From: an uncultured Bacteroidota bacterium
GTDB lineage: Bacteria; Bacteroidota; Rhodothermia; Rhodothermales; Salinibacteraceae
Assembly (NCBI GenBank): GCA_937127285.1
Contig: CAKZLV010000054.1
Coordinates: 1 to 63,976, forward strand
Length of the DNA: 63,976 nucleotides
Reading direction: 5' to 3'
Made by a program: the position numbers and the translations under genes
The notes under the pieces: generated by a model
Told to the model about the DNA's origin: nothing
What the model saw: only the letters and a program-made list of their open reading frames with translations
Databases searched by the model: none
Shown: positions 19,133-61,263 of the stretch, piece by piece
Numbering within the stretch: position 1 is the first letter of the stretch
How the letters are laid out: the number at the start of each line of letters is the position of its first letter

Positions 19133-20089
19133 ATGAAAGTTACCGAGCACCTCGACCGCGCTTCCGAGCCCCTCATCTCGTACGAAATCATCCCCCCGAA
19201 GCGAGGCGGATCGGCCGAGCAGATGCTGGAGGTGGTCGAAGAGTTGATGCCCTTCGATCCCCCGTTTATCGACGTCACGAGTCACTCGGCGCAGGTAACC
19301 TACAATCAGAAAGACGACGGATCCTGGAAGCGGGTGATCAAACGGAAGCGGCCGGGAACGCTCGGTCTCTGCGCCGCCATCGAGGCGCGGTTTGGCATCG
19401 ACACCGTGCCGCACCTCCTGTGCAACGGCTTCACCCGAGAAGAGACGGAGGATGCGCTCATCGAGCTCAACTATCTCGGGATTGACAACGTCCTGGCGAT
19501 TCGGGGCGATGACAAGGGCTACGAGAAGCCGCTTCCCGACAACCGCTCGCGCAACGAATACGCCGTCGACCTCGTCCAGCAGGTAGACGACATGAACGAC
19601 GGGGTCTACCTGGAAGATCTCATGGATGCGGAGCCGACGGACTTTTGCATCGGCGTCGGCGGATATCCGGAGAAGCACTTCCAGGCGCCGAACCTGACGT
19701 GGGACATCATGCGCCTGAAGCAAAAGGTGGAGGCGGGGGCGGACTACGTCGTCACGCAGATGTTCTTCAACAACGACTACTTCTTCCGCTTCGTCGAGCA
19801 GTGCCGCGAAGTGGGCATCGACGTCCCGATCATCCCGGGGTTGAAGATCATCACCGGCAAGCACCACCTGCAGACGCTTCCCTCGTTCTTCCACACGGAC
19901 ATTCCGGAGGCGCTGGCTGCCGAGATCGATGCCGCCGACCCGGAGCACGTCGAAGACATCGGCGTGGAGTGGGCCCGGCAGCAGGCCGAAGAACTCATGC
20001 GCGAAGGCGTTCCGTGCGTCCACTTCTACATCATGTCCAGCGCCGACACGGTCACGAAGGTCGTCGAGCCGATGCGCGAGATGGCCTAA
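19133..20089 (+). CDS. metF: Methylenetetrahydrofolate reductase
   Basis: The 318-residue protein is a full-length MetF TIM-barrel flavoprotein: SYEIIPPKRGG at the start, DVTSHSAQVTYNQ, LCNGFTREETEDALIEL, VLAIRGDD, FCIGVGGYPEKH, GADYVVTQMFFNNDYFFRF and IIPGLKIITGKHH. It reduces 5,10-methylene-THF to 5-methyl-THF for methionine synthesis in the cytoplasm. The SYEIIPPK variant of the usual SFEFFPPK is normal for Bacteroidota. The stop codon is followed one base later by a MITE-like repeat whose end forms a hairpin. Confidence 0.95.
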   Translation: MKVTEHLDRASEPLISYEIIPPKRGGSAEQMLEVVEELMPFDPPFIDVTSHSAQVTYNQKDDGSWKRVIKRKRPGTLGLCAAIEARFGIDTVPHLLCNGFTREETEDALIELNYLGIDNVLAIRGDDKGYEKPLPDNRSRNEYAVDLVQQVDDMNDGVYLEDLMDAEPTDFCIGVGGYPEKHFQAPNLTWDIMRLKQKVEAGADYVVTQMFFNNDYFFRFVEQCREVGIDVPIIPGLKIITGKHHLQTLPSFFHTDIPEALAAEIDAADPEHVEDIGVEWARQQAEELMREGVPCVHFYIMSSADTVTKVVEPMREMA

Positions 20090-20090
20090 C

Positions 20091-20215
20091 CCGAATTCTG
20101 AAGCAGAATTCGGGGTTGTGGGGGTTGGATGAGAGCGAGGATGGAGAGACGGAGGCACAACACGCGTATCCATCCCTTCGATGTTTACACCCGGACGGAG
20201 CGTGCGGAGTTCGGA
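20091..20215 (+). repeat. MITE-like interspersed element, copy 1
   Basis: The element starts CCGAATTCTG one base after the metF stop and ends CGGAGTTCGGA; the ends are about 10-bp inverted repeats. The left end is itself a perfect hairpin, CCGAATTCTG-AAG-CAGAATTCGG (20091-20113). The whole block is similar to the reverse complement of 34821-34963, with shared blocks such as GACGGA(G/A)GCACAACACG and CCCGGACGGAGC(G/A)TGCGG. It encodes nothing and could act as a terminator or transcript end. Confidence 0.75.
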
Positions 20216-34820: not shown

Positions 34821-34963
34821 TCCGAACTCCGCATGCTCCGTCCGGGGGTGGACACTGGAAGGATGGATGGATGAAGGAGGGATGTGTGGACGTGTTGTGC
34901 TTCCGTCCCTCCACCCCGCCACCCGTTCTCCCATCTACCCCCGAACTCTGCTTCCGGATTCGG
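34821..34963 (-). repeat. MITE-like interspersed element, copy 2
   Basis: The + strand reads TCCGAACTCCG at the left end and CCGGATTCGG at the right end, imperfect inverted repeats of each other. The reverse complement is similar to 20091-20215 over its whole length, with matching left hairpin (CCGAATCCGG...), GACGGAAGCACAACACG and CCCGGACGGAGCATGCGG; the middle differs by insertions. The element begins at the base after the stop codon of the HAD gene. Confidence 0.75.
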
Positions 34964-55848: not shown

Positions 55849-56397
55849 ATGGCCTTACGACGAAGCGAGACCTTCACCACCCCGAACGGCCACGTCATCC
55901 CGCTGGACGCGGCGGCGACGGTGTTTCCGCACGGATCCACCGTTGGAACCGTCCTGGCGCCGCCGGAACTGGCCTGGGAAGACATCGATCGGTTTTACAC
56001 CCAGCCCATTCAGTGCGGGGTGTATACCGAGAACGACGTTCCGCTCCTCGTTCTTCACGTTGTGGGCGAGTGGACGGAGGTGGCAGCCCTGAATACGCGC
56101 CTCTTCGACGACGACACGCTGGAGCCTCTTCTGCACCGGGGGACGTTCGCAGGACGCGACACGGTTCCGTTCTTTCTGGTTTCGAGAGAGGACGGAAAGA
56201 CCATGGCCGAGCGAGCGATGCTGATGCCCTCGCGAATGACCGAGTCCCTCGCCCGAGCCGCCGAGCGCCAGCACCGGCGCTTCATCAGCCGATCCTCCGT
56301 CGAACGGGCCGTCCGGTCGGTTCGCGATGCCTACTCCACCGCCGACCTCATGCAGAAGGCAGGCATCCAACCCCTGGCCCCGGCATCGTTCGGGTAG
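55849..56397 (+). CDS. Unknown cytoplasmic protein
   Basis: The 182-residue product is not recognised. It has no signal peptide or membrane helix. It reads as alpha/beta with VPLLVLHVVGEWTEVAAL, DTVPFFLVSREDGKTMAERA and a basic helical C-terminus (SLARAAERQHRRFISRSSVE). ATG 55849 follows a spacer and the base composition is normal for this window. It lies directly upstream of the heptamer array. Confidence 0.6.
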   Translation: MALRRSETFTTPNGHVIPLDAAATVFPHGSTVGTVLAPPELAWEDIDRFYTQPIQCGVYTENDVPLLVLHVVGEWTEVAALNTRLFDDDTLEPLLHRGTFAGRDTVPFFLVSREDGKTMAERAMLMPSRMTESLARAAERQHRRFISRSSVERAVRSVRDAYSTADLMQKAGIQPLAPASFG

Positions 56398-56421: not shown

Positions 56422-56547
56422 TTGGTCGCTGGGTGTTGGGTACTGGGTACTGGGTATTGGGTACTGGGTATTGGGTACTGGGTACTGGGTATTGGGTACT
56501 GGGTATTGGTCATTGGTCACTGGTCATTGGGCATTGGGCTCTGGGTA
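56422..56547. repeat. Heptanucleotide array, 18 units
   Basis: Eighteen consecutive 7-bp units of the form (T/C)TGG(G/T)(T/C)(A/G), mostly TTGGGTA and CTGGGTA, with TTGGTCA/CTGGTCA near the right end. Translated frames give the WVLGTGYW type of periodic peptide that is often mis-annotated as protein. The arrangement resembles the short tandemly repeated repetitive (STRR) heptamers known from cyanobacteria. Confidence 0.95.
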
Positions 56548-56559
56548 GTGGTTTTTGAC

Positions 56560-56700
56560 GCGGTGCCGTTCATCCATCCCCACCCCCCGTCCTCCTTCCA
56601 CCCGTCTCCGAAGCGTCCGAAGCCCCCACAGCGTCCAAAGCCCCCACAGCGTCCAAAGCCCCCACGCCCACACGCTCCCACGCTCCCACGCCCCCCCGCT
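56560..56700. repeat. Conserved core plus CCCCCAC minisatellite, left member of inverted pair
   Basis: Positions 56560-56581 are an exact inverted match (22 bp) to 60364-60385. Then follow GCGTCC(G/A)AAGCCCCCAC(A) units at about 56614, 56632 and 56650 and CACGCTCC-type units to about 56700, matching in inverted order the CGTGGGGGCTTGG units at 60300-60350. Confidence 0.85.
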
Positions 56701-56795
56701 CCCACGTCTTTCCCAATCTTCAACCTTCCCTTTTCTATTTCGACGGTGCGCCTGTTACCTTGCCTTTTGCTCAGTTCCCTTTTCATGATTCCCCG

Positions 56796-58829
56796 ATGCT
56801 TATGAACGGGCGTTTCCGTGTTGTCCTGGCTTTTCTGACCGGTGTTCTCCTTCTCGCGTCCCTGCGCCCCGGGCCGCTGCAGGCGCAGGAGGTTCCGGAG
56901 CACAACCTGGAGTCGTTCGAACCGCTGGACCTTCCGGACCCGAACGAGTTTCGGGCCGGAGACGGGCGGCCGGGGAACGAGTACTGGCAAAACGCCGCCG
57001 ACTACCAGATCGATGTGAAGCTGGACACGGCGTCGAACACGCTGTCGGGCCAGCAGTCGATCACCTACACGAACCGCGCCCCGCAGGACCTCGACCGGCT
57101 CTGGGTGCAGCTGGAGCAGAACTACTTCCGCCCCGACAGCCGGGGGGCGCGCGTGGTGCCGTCCGACGCCCGCTTCAGCGGGTTCTTCGAAGGGGCCGGC
57201 TACGACATCTCCGACGTCCAGCTCCGGCGCGACGGCGAGACGATCGATCCGTCGTTTGACGTGGAGGGGACGCGCATGCTCGTCGAACTGGCCGAGCCGC
57301 TGGCGGCGAACGGAGGAACCCTGACGCTCACCCTCGACTGGTCGTTCGAGATTCCGAAGTACGGGGCCGACCGGCACGGGCGACTCGACGTCGACGAGGG
57401 GACCGTGTACCAGCTGGCGCAGTGGTACCCGCGGATGTACGTGTACGACGACGTGAACGGGTGGAACCCGCTGCCCTACCTCGGGCAGGGCGAGTACTAC
57501 CTCGAGTACGGCACCTTTGAGGTCAACATTACCGTGCCGCGCAGCCACATCGTGGCGGCGACCGGCCGGCTGCAGAATCCGGAGGAGGTGCTGACCGAGA
57601 CGCAGCGTGAGCGTCTCGACGAGGCGCGCGGCAGCCGCGAGACGGTCCACATCATCACCGAAGAGGAGGCCGGCACCGGCGCGACGCGCCCGGACGGCGA
57701 CGGCCCCGTTACCTGGCGCTACGAGGCCGAGAAGGTTCGGGACTTCTCCTGGGCGTCCTCGCAGGCCTTCATCTGGGACGCGGCCGATGCCGAGGTGGAG
57801 GGCCAGGAGGTTCTTGCCCAGTCCTTCTATCCGCAGGAAGGGATCGGGTCCGATCAGAACCCGGGCTGGGAAAAGTCGACCGAGTACGTGCAGCACAGCG
57901 TTGAATTCTACTCCGACACCTACGCCCCCTACCCCTATCCGAACGCGATCAACGTTGCCGGCATCGTCGGCGGGATGGAGTATCCGCAGATCATGTTCTG
58001 CTCGTACGAGGCCCGGGGTCGGGGCCTCTTCGGCGTCACCGACCACGAGTTCGGCCACACCTGGTTTCCGATGGTCGTCGGGACGGACGAGCGCCGCTGG
58101 GTGTGGATGGATGAGGGCCTGAACACGTTCATGAACCAGTACTCGGCCCTTGCCTACTACGGCGACGGCAACGTGCCGCCGCGCCGCGCCCTCCAGAACC
58201 TCTCCCGGGTCACGGCCAGCACGATGAAATCGCCGATGGGCGATCAGCCGATCATGATTTATGCCGATCACATGCGCGATCAGGCCCTCGGCTTCCTCGC
58301 CTACCGCAAGCCGGCCAACGGCCTGATGCTGCTGCGCGAGTACGTCGTCGGTCCCGAGCGCTTCGACGCCGCCTTCACCGCCTTCATCGACCGGTGGGCG
58401 TACAAGCACCCGAAGCCGGCCGACTTCTTCCGCACGATCGAAGACGTGACGGGAGAGGACCTCGACTGGTTCTGGCGGTCCTGGTTCTACGAGACGGACG
58501 TGGTCGATCACGCCGTTGCCAGCGTGCAGACGCGCGCAGATAGTTCCACCACGGTCACCGTCAAGCAAAACGGAGACCTCATGCTCCCGATCACCGCCCA
58601 GATGACCTTTGCCGACGGCTCGACGGAGACGCGCCGCGTTCCCGCCGAAGCCTTCTTCACCCAAGACACCCACGACCTGACGGTAGCGGAAGGACGCACG
58701 GTCGAACGCGTCGTGCTCGACCCCCAGCAGATCCTTCCCGATGTCAACCGCCAGGATAACACGTGGTCGGCGTCCGACGCAGACTCCGACTCCGGCGGCA
58801 CCCCCGCGGGCGACACGTCGCAGCGATAG
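56796..58829 (+). CDS. M1 family zinc metallopeptidase, secreted
   Basis: The 677-residue product has a signal peptide (residues 1-29, LQAQE) and an M1 aminopeptidase fold: N-terminal beta domain (55-250), the substrate gate [10 protein letters not shown], the zinc site HEFGH (H417, H421) with E440 in WMDEGLN, and a helical C-domain. The GGMEYP variant of GAMEN is usual in this Bacteroidota subgroup. After about residue 610 comes a beta-rich part and a Ser/Asp-rich end. It works in the periplasm, or outside the cell, on peptides. A strong terminator follows. Start ATG 56796 (MLMNGRF) or 56802. Confidence 0.92.
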
Positions 58830-58852
58830 CGGCTTCCGCCTCCCCCCCGTAC

Positions 58853-58897
58853 GAAAGGACACCCGCACCAGTCGGCTGCCGGGTGTCCTTTCTGTTT
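58853..58897 (+). terminator. Rho-independent terminator after the M1 peptidase gene
   Basis: GAAAGGACACCCG (58853-58865) pairs perfectly with CGGGTGTCCTTTC (58880-58892), a 13-bp stem, followed by TGTTTGGG. The following CTGTTTGGGA repeats (three copies to 58926) make up most of the rest of the spacer. Confidence 0.8.
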
Positions 58898-59009
58898 GGG
58901 ATCTGTCTGTTTGGGACCTGTTTGGGAGCCGCCTGGTCATCCGCCGGCGGCTTCCGGGGGCGCTGGCCTTCCTCCTCGTGTTTCCCGTTCGATAACCGAG
59001 ACTGTCTTC

Positions 59010-60299
59010 ATGCCCTTCTCGCTCGCCCTTCTCCGCGGCCTCCTCGGTCTGGCGGTGTTTGTGGGCATCGCCGTGGTGTTCTCGACCAATCGGAAGGCCA
59101 TCGACTGGAAGCTCGTCGGGGCGGGGATCGGGCTGCAGATTGTCTTCGCGCTTCTGGTGCTGAAGACAGGACCCGGCGAGATCGTCTTCGACACTCTGGC
59201 CGGCGGATTCCAGGAACTGCTCGAGTTTACGTACGAGGGGACGAAGTTCATCTTCGGCGAGCTCGGCAACCCCGAGAAGGGCAACAACTTCGCCTTTCAG
59301 GTTCTGCCCACCATCGTCTTCTTCGCCTCGCTGATGAGCGTGCTCTACTTCCTGGGCGTCGTCCAGCCGCTCGTGAAGGGAATGGGCTGGCTGATGCAGA
59401 AGACGCTGGGGATCTCCGGGGCGGAGTCGCTTTCCTCCGCCGCAAACGTGTTCATCGGACAGACCGAGGCGCCGCTCGTCGTCGAACCGTACGTCGAGCA
59501 GATGACGCGGAGTGAGTTGATGACGCTCATGGCCGGGGGCATGGCTACCATCGCCGGCGGCGTGCTGGCGGCATACATCAGCTTTCTCGGTGGCGATTCG
59601 GAGGCAAGCCAGGTTCTCTTTGCCAAGCACCTGCTTTCCGCGTCGATCATGAGCGCTCCGGCCGCGATCGTAACGGCGAAGATCCTCGTCCCCGAGACGG
59701 AAGAGCCCAAGACGCGCGGCGAAACGACGATGAACGTCGAGAAGGAGGACGACAACGTCATCGAGGCCGCTGCCAGCGGAGCCAGTGAGGGCCTCACGCT
59801 GGCGCTGAACGTGGGGGCGATGCTCCTCGCCTTTATCGCGCTCATCGCCGTTATCAACTGGGTGCTGGGCGGGGTCGGGTCTTTGACCGGCCTGAACGCC
59901 GCCGTGGCGGAGGCCTCCGACGGTCGGTTCGAGGGACTGACGCTGCAGGCCGTCTTCGGATTCGTTTTTGCCCCGCTCGCGTGGGCGATGGGGGTCGAGG
60001 CGGCCGACATCCTCAGCTTCGGCACCCTCCTCGGCGAAAAGGTGGCGGTGAACGAGTTCGTGGCCTACGCGTCGCTGCGAGACCTGAAAGACACGATGAG
60101 CGAACGGTCGGTCATTATCGGCACGTACGCCCTCTGTGGGTTTGCCAACTTCTCTTCGATCGCCATTCAGATCGGCGGCATCGGCGGCATCGCCCCGTCG
60201 CGCCGGAGCGAGATCGCCGCCCTGGGACTGCGGGCCGTCCTGGGCGGGGCCCTGGCCTCCTGGATGACAGCCTCCATCGCCGGCGTGCTGGTGGCGTAG
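59010..60299 (+). CDS. Concentrative nucleoside transporter (CNT/NupC family)
   Basis: The 429-residue protein has about ten membrane helices in the CNT arrangement: STNRKAIDWKLVGAGIGLQI, EKGNNFAFQVLPTIVFFASL, the nucleoside-binding GQTEAPLVVEPYVEQMTRSE, MATIAGGVLAAYISFLG, VAVNEFVAYASL and CGFANFSSIAIQIGGIGGIA. It imports nucleosides with sodium or protons. The substrate signature GQTEAPL matches NupC-type permeases. ATG 59010; a longer frame reads through the spacer repeats. With the M1 peptidase it forms the segment framed by inverted repeats. Confidence 0.92.
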   Translation: MPFSLALLRGLLGLAVFVGIAVVFSTNRKAIDWKLVGAGIGLQIVFALLVLKTGPGEIVFDTLAGGFQELLEFTYEGTKFIFGELGNPEKGNNFAFQVLPTIVFFASLMSVLYFLGVVQPLVKGMGWLMQKTLGISGAESLSSAANVFIGQTEAPLVVEPYVEQMTRSELMTLMAGGMATIAGGVLAAYISFLGGDSEASQVLFAKHLLSASIMSAPAAIVTAKILVPETEEPKTRGETTMNVEKEDDNVIEAAASGASEGLTLALNVGAMLLAFIALIAVINWVLGGVGSLTGLNAAVAEASDGRFEGLTLQAVFGFVFAPLAWAMGVEAADILSFGTLLGEKVAVNEFVAYASLRDLKDTMSERSVIIGTYALCGFANFSSIAIQIGGIGGIAPSRRSEIAALGLRAVLGGALASWMTASIAGVLVA

Positions 60300-60446
60300 G
60301 GGGAGCGTGGGGGCTTGGGAGCGTGGGGGCTGGGGACGCTTGGAGGCTGGGTGTGGGGGAAGGGGGGATGGATGAACGGCACCGCACCAAAAACCAGTAC
60401 CCAGTATCCAATGACCAGTGACCAATGACCAGTGACCAACACCCAA
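60300..60446. repeat. Inverted counterpart of the composite repeat at 56.4-56.7 kb
   Basis: Beginning right after the transporter stop: CGTGGGGGCTTGGGAG-type minisatellite (60306-60350), the 22-bp core (60364-60385), then about eight degenerate heptamers on the - strand (60394-60446: CTGGGTA, TTGGTCA, CTGGTCA). The order mirrors the left copy, with the minisatellite on the gene side and the heptamers outside. Confidence 0.9.
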
Positions 60447-60519
60447 TCCCCCAAACGAAAACGCCCCCGACGCGGGGAGCGCCGGAGGCGGGGAGGGGCG
60501 GAAGCGGGGAGGGCGGAGG

Positions 60520-61263
60520 CTATTGCGGGGCCGGGAAATTGATCGAGAAGCGGACCCAGGAATCCACCGGCTGCCACTCGCGGTCGACCTGTACGTAGGC
60601 CGGGTTCCACCGCCGCTTCGTGGCTCCTTTCATGGCGATGGCATTCAGGGTCGGGTGCGTGCCCTCGATGACTTCGATCGCGTTGGGCACGCCCGTGACT
60701 TCTCCGTTTTCCTCCTGCGTCGCCAGGTGAACCTGCAGTTCGACGCGGCCGCTGGCCTCTTCGGTCCGCAGGCTCTCCGGATACGCCATCTGCACGTCCG
60801 ACTTCGTCGGCTGCGGCTCGCGGAAGACCTTGTTGATGGCCTTGTAGGCCTTGTTCTTGTACTCGTTCTCGGTTTCCATCTTCAGGCGTCCCTCTTCGGT
60901 CACGATGTCCCCGTTCAGGTCCACCTGCCGCAGCGAGTCGACCGCCCGGGCCTCAAAGAGCGAGTCGACCACTTCCGGGTTGTTGCGGTAGAGCTTGATG
61001 AGGCTGCGCTTGATCGCGTTGTTGAACTGCTCCTGCGTCAGGCCGGTCTGGGTGACGCTCAGCTCCTCCTGCGCGAACCCCATCTCCTGGAGCGTCCCCA
61101 GGTTGCGAAAGGCCGTTGCGGTGTCTACCTCCGCCTTCCACCAGCGGGTCTCGGAGGTCTGCCAGCCGGAGGGCGCCTCGGCAGGGTTGCCGCCGGACGA
61201 GCAGCCGGCCAGGACGACGAGAAGGGCAGCGAGCGTGGATGCAATCCAACGCGTGGGAGACAT
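60520..61263 (-). CDS. Lipoprotein with TonB C-terminal-like domain
   Basis: The 247-residue product is a lipoprotein (LVVLAGCSSG, cysteine 21). Residues 150-247 resemble a TonB C-terminal domain: YPESLRTEEASGRVELQVHL, GVPNAIEVIEGTHPTLNAIA and RRWNPAYVQVDREWQPVDSW, with the RxxxxP-type basic pattern and final FSINFPAPQ. The middle is helical with a YKNKAYKAINKVF stretch. Such stand-alone lipoproteins are common in Bacteroidota; they may link to outer-membrane transport but have no TM helix for energy coupling. Confidence 0.75.
   Translation of the reverse strand: MSPTRWIASTLAALLVVLAGCSSGGNPAEAPSGWQTSETRWWKAEVDTATAFRNLGTLQEMGFAQEELSVTQTGLTQEQFNNAIKRSLIKLYRNNPEVVDSLFEARAVDSLRQVDLNGDIVTEEGRLKMETENEYKNKAYKAINKVFREPQPTKSDVQMAYPESLRTEEASGRVELQVHLATQEENGEVTGVPNAIEVIEGTHPTLNAIAMKGATKRRWNPAYVQVDREWQPVDSWVRFSINFPAPQ

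Follow-up and report, generated by a model that had tools for sequence, protein, structure and literature searches.

Mirrored composite tandem arrays around an M1 peptidase-nucleoside transporter gene pair belong to a dispersed intergenic array family in a Salinibacter relative

The M1-CNT locus and its mirrored spacers

The window, i.e., the whole 63,976-nt stretch of DNA analysed here, belongs to a draft genome of a salt-loving relative of Salinibacter (Salinibacter/Salinivenus group). Near its right end, a gene encoding an M1-family metallopeptidase (56760-58829, forward strand, likely start at 56802; PF01433) is followed by a gene encoding a concentrative nucleoside transporter, CNT (59010-60299, forward strand; PF07662, PF01773, PF07670). 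A TonB_C-like gene (60520-61263, reverse strand), whose domain match lies below the Pfam cut-off, is convergent with cnt and opens the conserved right flank of the pair. In the M1-CNT spacer, a hairpin with a T-rich tract (GGACACCCG...CGGGTGTCC TTTCTGTTTG; 58845-58895) was recognized by eye, although the terminator scan did not list it; it suggests that M1 may have a terminator of its own and that M1 and CNT may not form one operon.

We found that both spacers bordering the gene pair carry a heptamer array, a core and a C-rich minisatellite in mirrored order, as the first-pass annotation had described. On the left side, the heptamer array (56429-56551, forward strand) consists of about 17 units, TGGGTAY followed by TGGTCAY/TGGGCAT, and the 5' end of its G-rich strand lies 32-40 nt past the stop codon of the open reading frame at 55849-56397. 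It is followed by the left core (56552-56587, forward strand; GGTTTTTGACGCGGTGCCGTTCATCCATCCCC) and by a C-rich minisatellite (56607-56706, forward strand) built of the units GCGTCCAAAGCCCCCAC / GCTCCCAC, the G-rich strand of which is the reverse one and is directed away from the M1 start, which lies at a distance of 54 nt. On the right side, the C-rich minisatellite (60300-60351, reverse strand) comes first, its G-rich forward strand starting immediately 3' of the CNT stop codon, followed by the mirror copy of the left core (60362-60392, reverse strand) and by about 8 heptamer units (60393-60451, reverse strand; TGGTCAY, TGGATAC and TGGGTAC), whose G-rich strand is directed away from the TonB-like gene. 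A terminator-like hairpin with a T-tract (60462-60490, reverse strand) separates these heptamers from the 3' end of that gene.

The best arm pair (56489-56588 versus 60357-60456) spans 100 nt with 82% complementarity; no longer inverted repeat occurs in the window. The longest exact stretches between the arms amount to 24 bp in the heptamers (TGGTCATTGGTCACTGGTCATTGG) and 22 bp in the core, so that the identical core of the earlier description was borne out by sequence comparison. The arrays differ in size, with 14 strict heptamer units on the left and 6 on the right, and the minisatellite units differ as well.

Gene order in relatives

The M1-CNT order is found with identical orientation in every relative in which both genes were detected, and the right flank after cnt, which comprises the convergent TonB-like gene and the genes encoding an L,D-transpeptidase (LDT) and a HAD protein, is kept in nine of them. 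The left junction, in turn, represents a synteny break. Upstream of M1 we found here a small orphan ORF and LAP-pdxA, compared with a helicase gene of the UvrD/PcrA type (a name given on sequence grounds rather than through a family search) in eight relatives; in G004, a genome of the sister genus g5, LAP lies 335 kb away from M1-CNT. A close ortholog of the helicase, which would have marked the partner in a putative rearrangement mediated by the arrays, is absent from the 88%-complete draft. The orphan ORF bordering the break (55849-56397, 182 aa) gave no match in Pfam, and none of the orthologous loci retrieved contains a homolog of it.

A private core within a genome-wide array family

A search of the 3.85-Mb draft with a 20-bp core pattern (≤3 mismatches) returned exactly two sites, both at M1-CNT, with 0 control matches; as the draft is 88% complete and many of its contigs break off within arrays, it may lack additional copies of the core. 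The core pair was not found in any of 113 other genomes of the order, which gave isolated 2-mismatch matches only, nor did the core match IMG/VR viral contigs, the left element plasmids, or the window any Rfam entry. Being private to these two sites, the core identifies the M1-CNT mirror pair as a real local inverted copy.

The arrays, on the other hand, are anything but private. The left arm used as a BLAST query hit 51 places in the draft, and the heptamer pattern matched 464 times compared with 9 times for a reversed control. Together with the minisatellites, with units of 8-18 bp, the heptamer arrays form a large genus-specific intergenic family dispersed throughout the genome. The ends of contigs C25, C135, C122, C265, C106, C7 and others fall inside arrays; the family therefore probably limits the assembly, and its copies are undercounted. 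Unlinked elements also have cores in common (34 bp between contigs C364 and C10, 21 bp between C215 and C52, and 20 bp between C364 and C25), which implies that cores are copied from spacer to spacer throughout the family, and not just at M1-CNT.

Contig C364 also carries a second mirror pair of heptamer-core-minisatellite elements (contig positions 15294-19129), which are 3.6 kb apart and frame two genes; their cores share at most 13 bp. We considered a general rule of paired elements with a shared core and rejected it on this example, since 13 bp is all that the two cores have in common and one resembles cores of other contigs more than it does its partner. As for a link with transposition, a single Y1_Tnp gene (135 aa, contig C282) was found in the genome, and its 3.4-kb locus contains no arrays, i.e., it shows no association of the REP/RAYT type.

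The G-rich strand leads away from the gene edge

The arrays and genes were mapped on 47 stretches of the genome, which represent the better-matching or first-listed arrays; genes were called with our own codon-bias script, and gene starts that ran into an array were cut back. Of 57 arrays, 48 had the G-rich strand's 5' end closer to a gene than its 3' end (p = 1.5e-7; arrays within one spacer are not fully independent), as did 32 of 37 when heptamers were taken alone (p = 7e-6). The median distance to the gene was 23 nt at the 5' end of the G-strand versus 159 nt at its 3' end, and all four M1-CNT arrays fit this outward rule (40/226, 54/225, 4/190 and 82/98 nt). In a separate count, 27 arrays started ≤40 nt after a stop codon in the sense orientation, versus 1 in the opposite sense.

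Wherever a heptamer array and a minisatellite are no more than 260 bp apart, the heptamers come first on the same strand (17/17 cases). As it is the opposite strand of the minisatellite that is rich in G, the two G-rich strands face each other, and the facing partners are in all 17 cases two different unit types. Neighbouring heptamer arrays no more than 6 kb apart (13 pairs) were facing in four cases, facing away in two and running in the same direction in seven. Under the outward rule, only a few arrangements can arise around a gene block, a mirrored order being one of them.

Heptamers of sister genera and quadruplex motifs

In the family comparison, the heptamer pattern had 375 matches in the genome of the window; 26 further genomes of the family had none, and G036, a distant genome of the same order that carries TGGGTAC arrays, had 15. 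The two genomes of the sister genus g5 possess a different heptamer, GGGTTCA (83 and 35 matches), with 0 matches in the window's genome. The outward rule holds there too, for 14 of 16 GGGTTCA arrays sampled in G004 (p = 0.004), as it does for all five TGGGTAC arrays of G036. In G004, the cnt ortholog is followed directly after its stop codon by a GGGTTCA array (contig C2, locus L213, 3216-3292), where the window's genome has its G-rich minisatellite.

We tentatively propose, as a possibility that we consider rather doubtful at present, that the unit has been replaced wholesale between the sister genera (TSGGTAY versus GGGTTCA, which are mutually exclusive) with position and polarity kept. This would imply selection or a directional mechanism acting on the outward-reading G-rich strand, e.g., a transcription boundary or an R-loop/G4 barrier, in addition to a copying process that also carries adjoining core DNA from one spacer to another.

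The left heptamers and both minisatellites at M1-CNT contain a canonical G3 quadruplex motif. In the genome sample, the motif was present in 16 of 32 minisatellites and in 7 of 54 heptamer arrays; most of the latter lack it because many of their units are TCGG. Whole spacers folded as RNA no better than their shuffled versions (z of +2.3, -1.3 and -0.8). With so few G3 motifs and no gain in RNA folding, a structural role is unsupported as a general property of the family.

Origin of the mirrored arms

The first-pass annotation had offered three explanations for the mirrored arms: an invertible 3.6-kb segment, a transposed cassette, or an inverted duplication of an intergenic element family. 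The last of these fits best, as the arms combine membership of a dispersed family with a private mirrored core. We consider it probable, at roughly 70%, that the M1-CNT arms are two members of the dispersed gene-edge array family between which one stretch was copied in inverted orientation. This reading builds on the array dispersal, the polarity rule, the private shared core and the conserved gene order observed above. Each spacer would have a heptamer array that begins beside one of its two genes and a minisatellite, with the opposite strand rich in G, that begins beside the other, so that the G-rich strands of both lead outward from the genes and a non-repetitive core is left in between. 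Such outward polarity would yield the heptamer-core-minisatellite order and make mirror arrangements common. The heptamer end together with the core, about 100 nt, would then have been copied inverted from the spacer on one side of M1-CNT to that on the other, most likely via array-seeded recombination or template switching, and other cores would have been copied likewise between unlinked spacers. The arrays themselves may grow by slippage, and the G-rich strand past gene ends could act as a G-quadruplex or a transcription boundary.

A less probable explanation, though the best placed of the competing ones, is that the arrays were gained separately on the two sides and that the likeness of the cores stems from gene conversion seeded by the arrays rather than from duplication of a whole element. 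The strong difference in array length and the different minisatellite units are consistent with it, as is the concentration of identity in the core and the adjoining heptamers; yet an inverted duplication followed by array growth would leave the same trace, which makes the two hard to tell apart. We regard it as improbable that the left arm is an assembly artefact, i.e., that two contigs were joined through a shared heptamer and the left synteny break was created in this way. The draft consists of 370 contigs, several with ends inside arrays, and the break coincides with the heptamer array; however, the left minisatellite and core, which match the right core, adjoin M1 without interruption, so that the pair would survive a misjoin in the heptamers.

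Compared with the dispersed-family reading, a reversible switch, in which recombination between the inverted arms flips M1-CNT and alters its expression context, appears very unlikely. The M1-CNT locus shares with phase-variation segments a frame of inverted repeats, in this case of about 100 nt with identical stretches of 22-24 bp. In contrast to such segments, its arms are imperfect, with perfect homology being short, and no recombinase was found among the ten flanking genes scanned. Moreover, M1 and CNT have kept their ancestral orientation with respect to the TonB-LDT-HAD flank, itself conserved, relatives devoid of the arms have the same M1-CNT orientation, and both are ordinary household genes, unlikely as targets of phase variation. 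The inversion claim is thus left without positive support. Least likely of all is that the elements are the ends of a composite mobile unit that brought M1-CNT here: the rearranged left junction and the remote position of LAP in G004 speak for it, but the gene pair is ancestral throughout the family and present at the orthologous position in relatives, the right flank is conserved in nine of them with only the left junction rearranged, the arms belong to a family scattered around unrelated genes, and the one Y1 transposase found has no arrays nearby, and hence we discard the cassette claim. From the comparison of sequences, the M1-CNT block can be regarded as an ancestral resident, neither a cassette nor a segment shown to invert.

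Relation to known intergenic heptamers

Cyanobacterial STRR sequences are short tandemly repeated repetitive heptamers, degenerate and present at many intergenic sites; they resemble the arrays described here as tandem intergenic heptamers, but differ in phylum and units. The TAACTGA repeats of Beggiatoaceae are likewise lineage-specific, abundant intergenic heptamers, reported in some Bacteroidetes too (PMC4679880), yet they are not G-rich and are located just upstream of start codons in the sense orientation. The closest parallel is provided by the G4-forming heptamers GGGAATC and GGGGA(C/T)T of Xanthomonas and Nostoc, found 0-50 bp after stop codons on the coding strand or before start codons on the non-coding one; each Xanthomonas genome has 70-75 pairs of arrays that face each other (Rehm et al., 2015; PMC4692102). 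Both systems comprise dispersed intergenic arrays of G-rich 7-bp units (G3N4) with an outward G-rich strand and facing pairs. In contrast to Xanthomonas and Nostoc, the units here are TGGGTAY and GGGTTCA, the facing partner is a different array of longer period, cores are copied between spacers, and most arrays lack the canonical G3 motif. Judged on sequence, the geometry is already known from the 2015 work (PMC4692102), and the units, the composite nature and the core copying are what sets the arrays described here apart.

Finding the same polarity in another phylum separates sequence from geometry, as G-richness, position and strand are kept while the letters are not. The orthologous cnt 3' ends, with different G-rich units in the two sister genera, provide one case of geometry kept. 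We see the quick heptamer change between sister genera with retained polarity as the interesting part; any role of the arrays is putative, and the Xanthomonas/Nostoc study likewise arrived at no function for such gene-edge heptamers and did not settle their role (PMC4692102). Mechanisms such as slippage bias near transcript ends, termination or R-loops become testable by comparison.

A further inverted repeat in the window

A second inverted pair in the window (20168-20215 and 34821-34868) spans 48 nt with 83% complementarity, extending to about 100 nt at looser similarity. One copy follows an ORF whose end is at 20089, and the other comes directly after the stop codon of a HAD-like ORF (34820). 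In the latter, the sense strand is G-rich and the GGATGGATGGATG units resemble part of the M1-CNT core.
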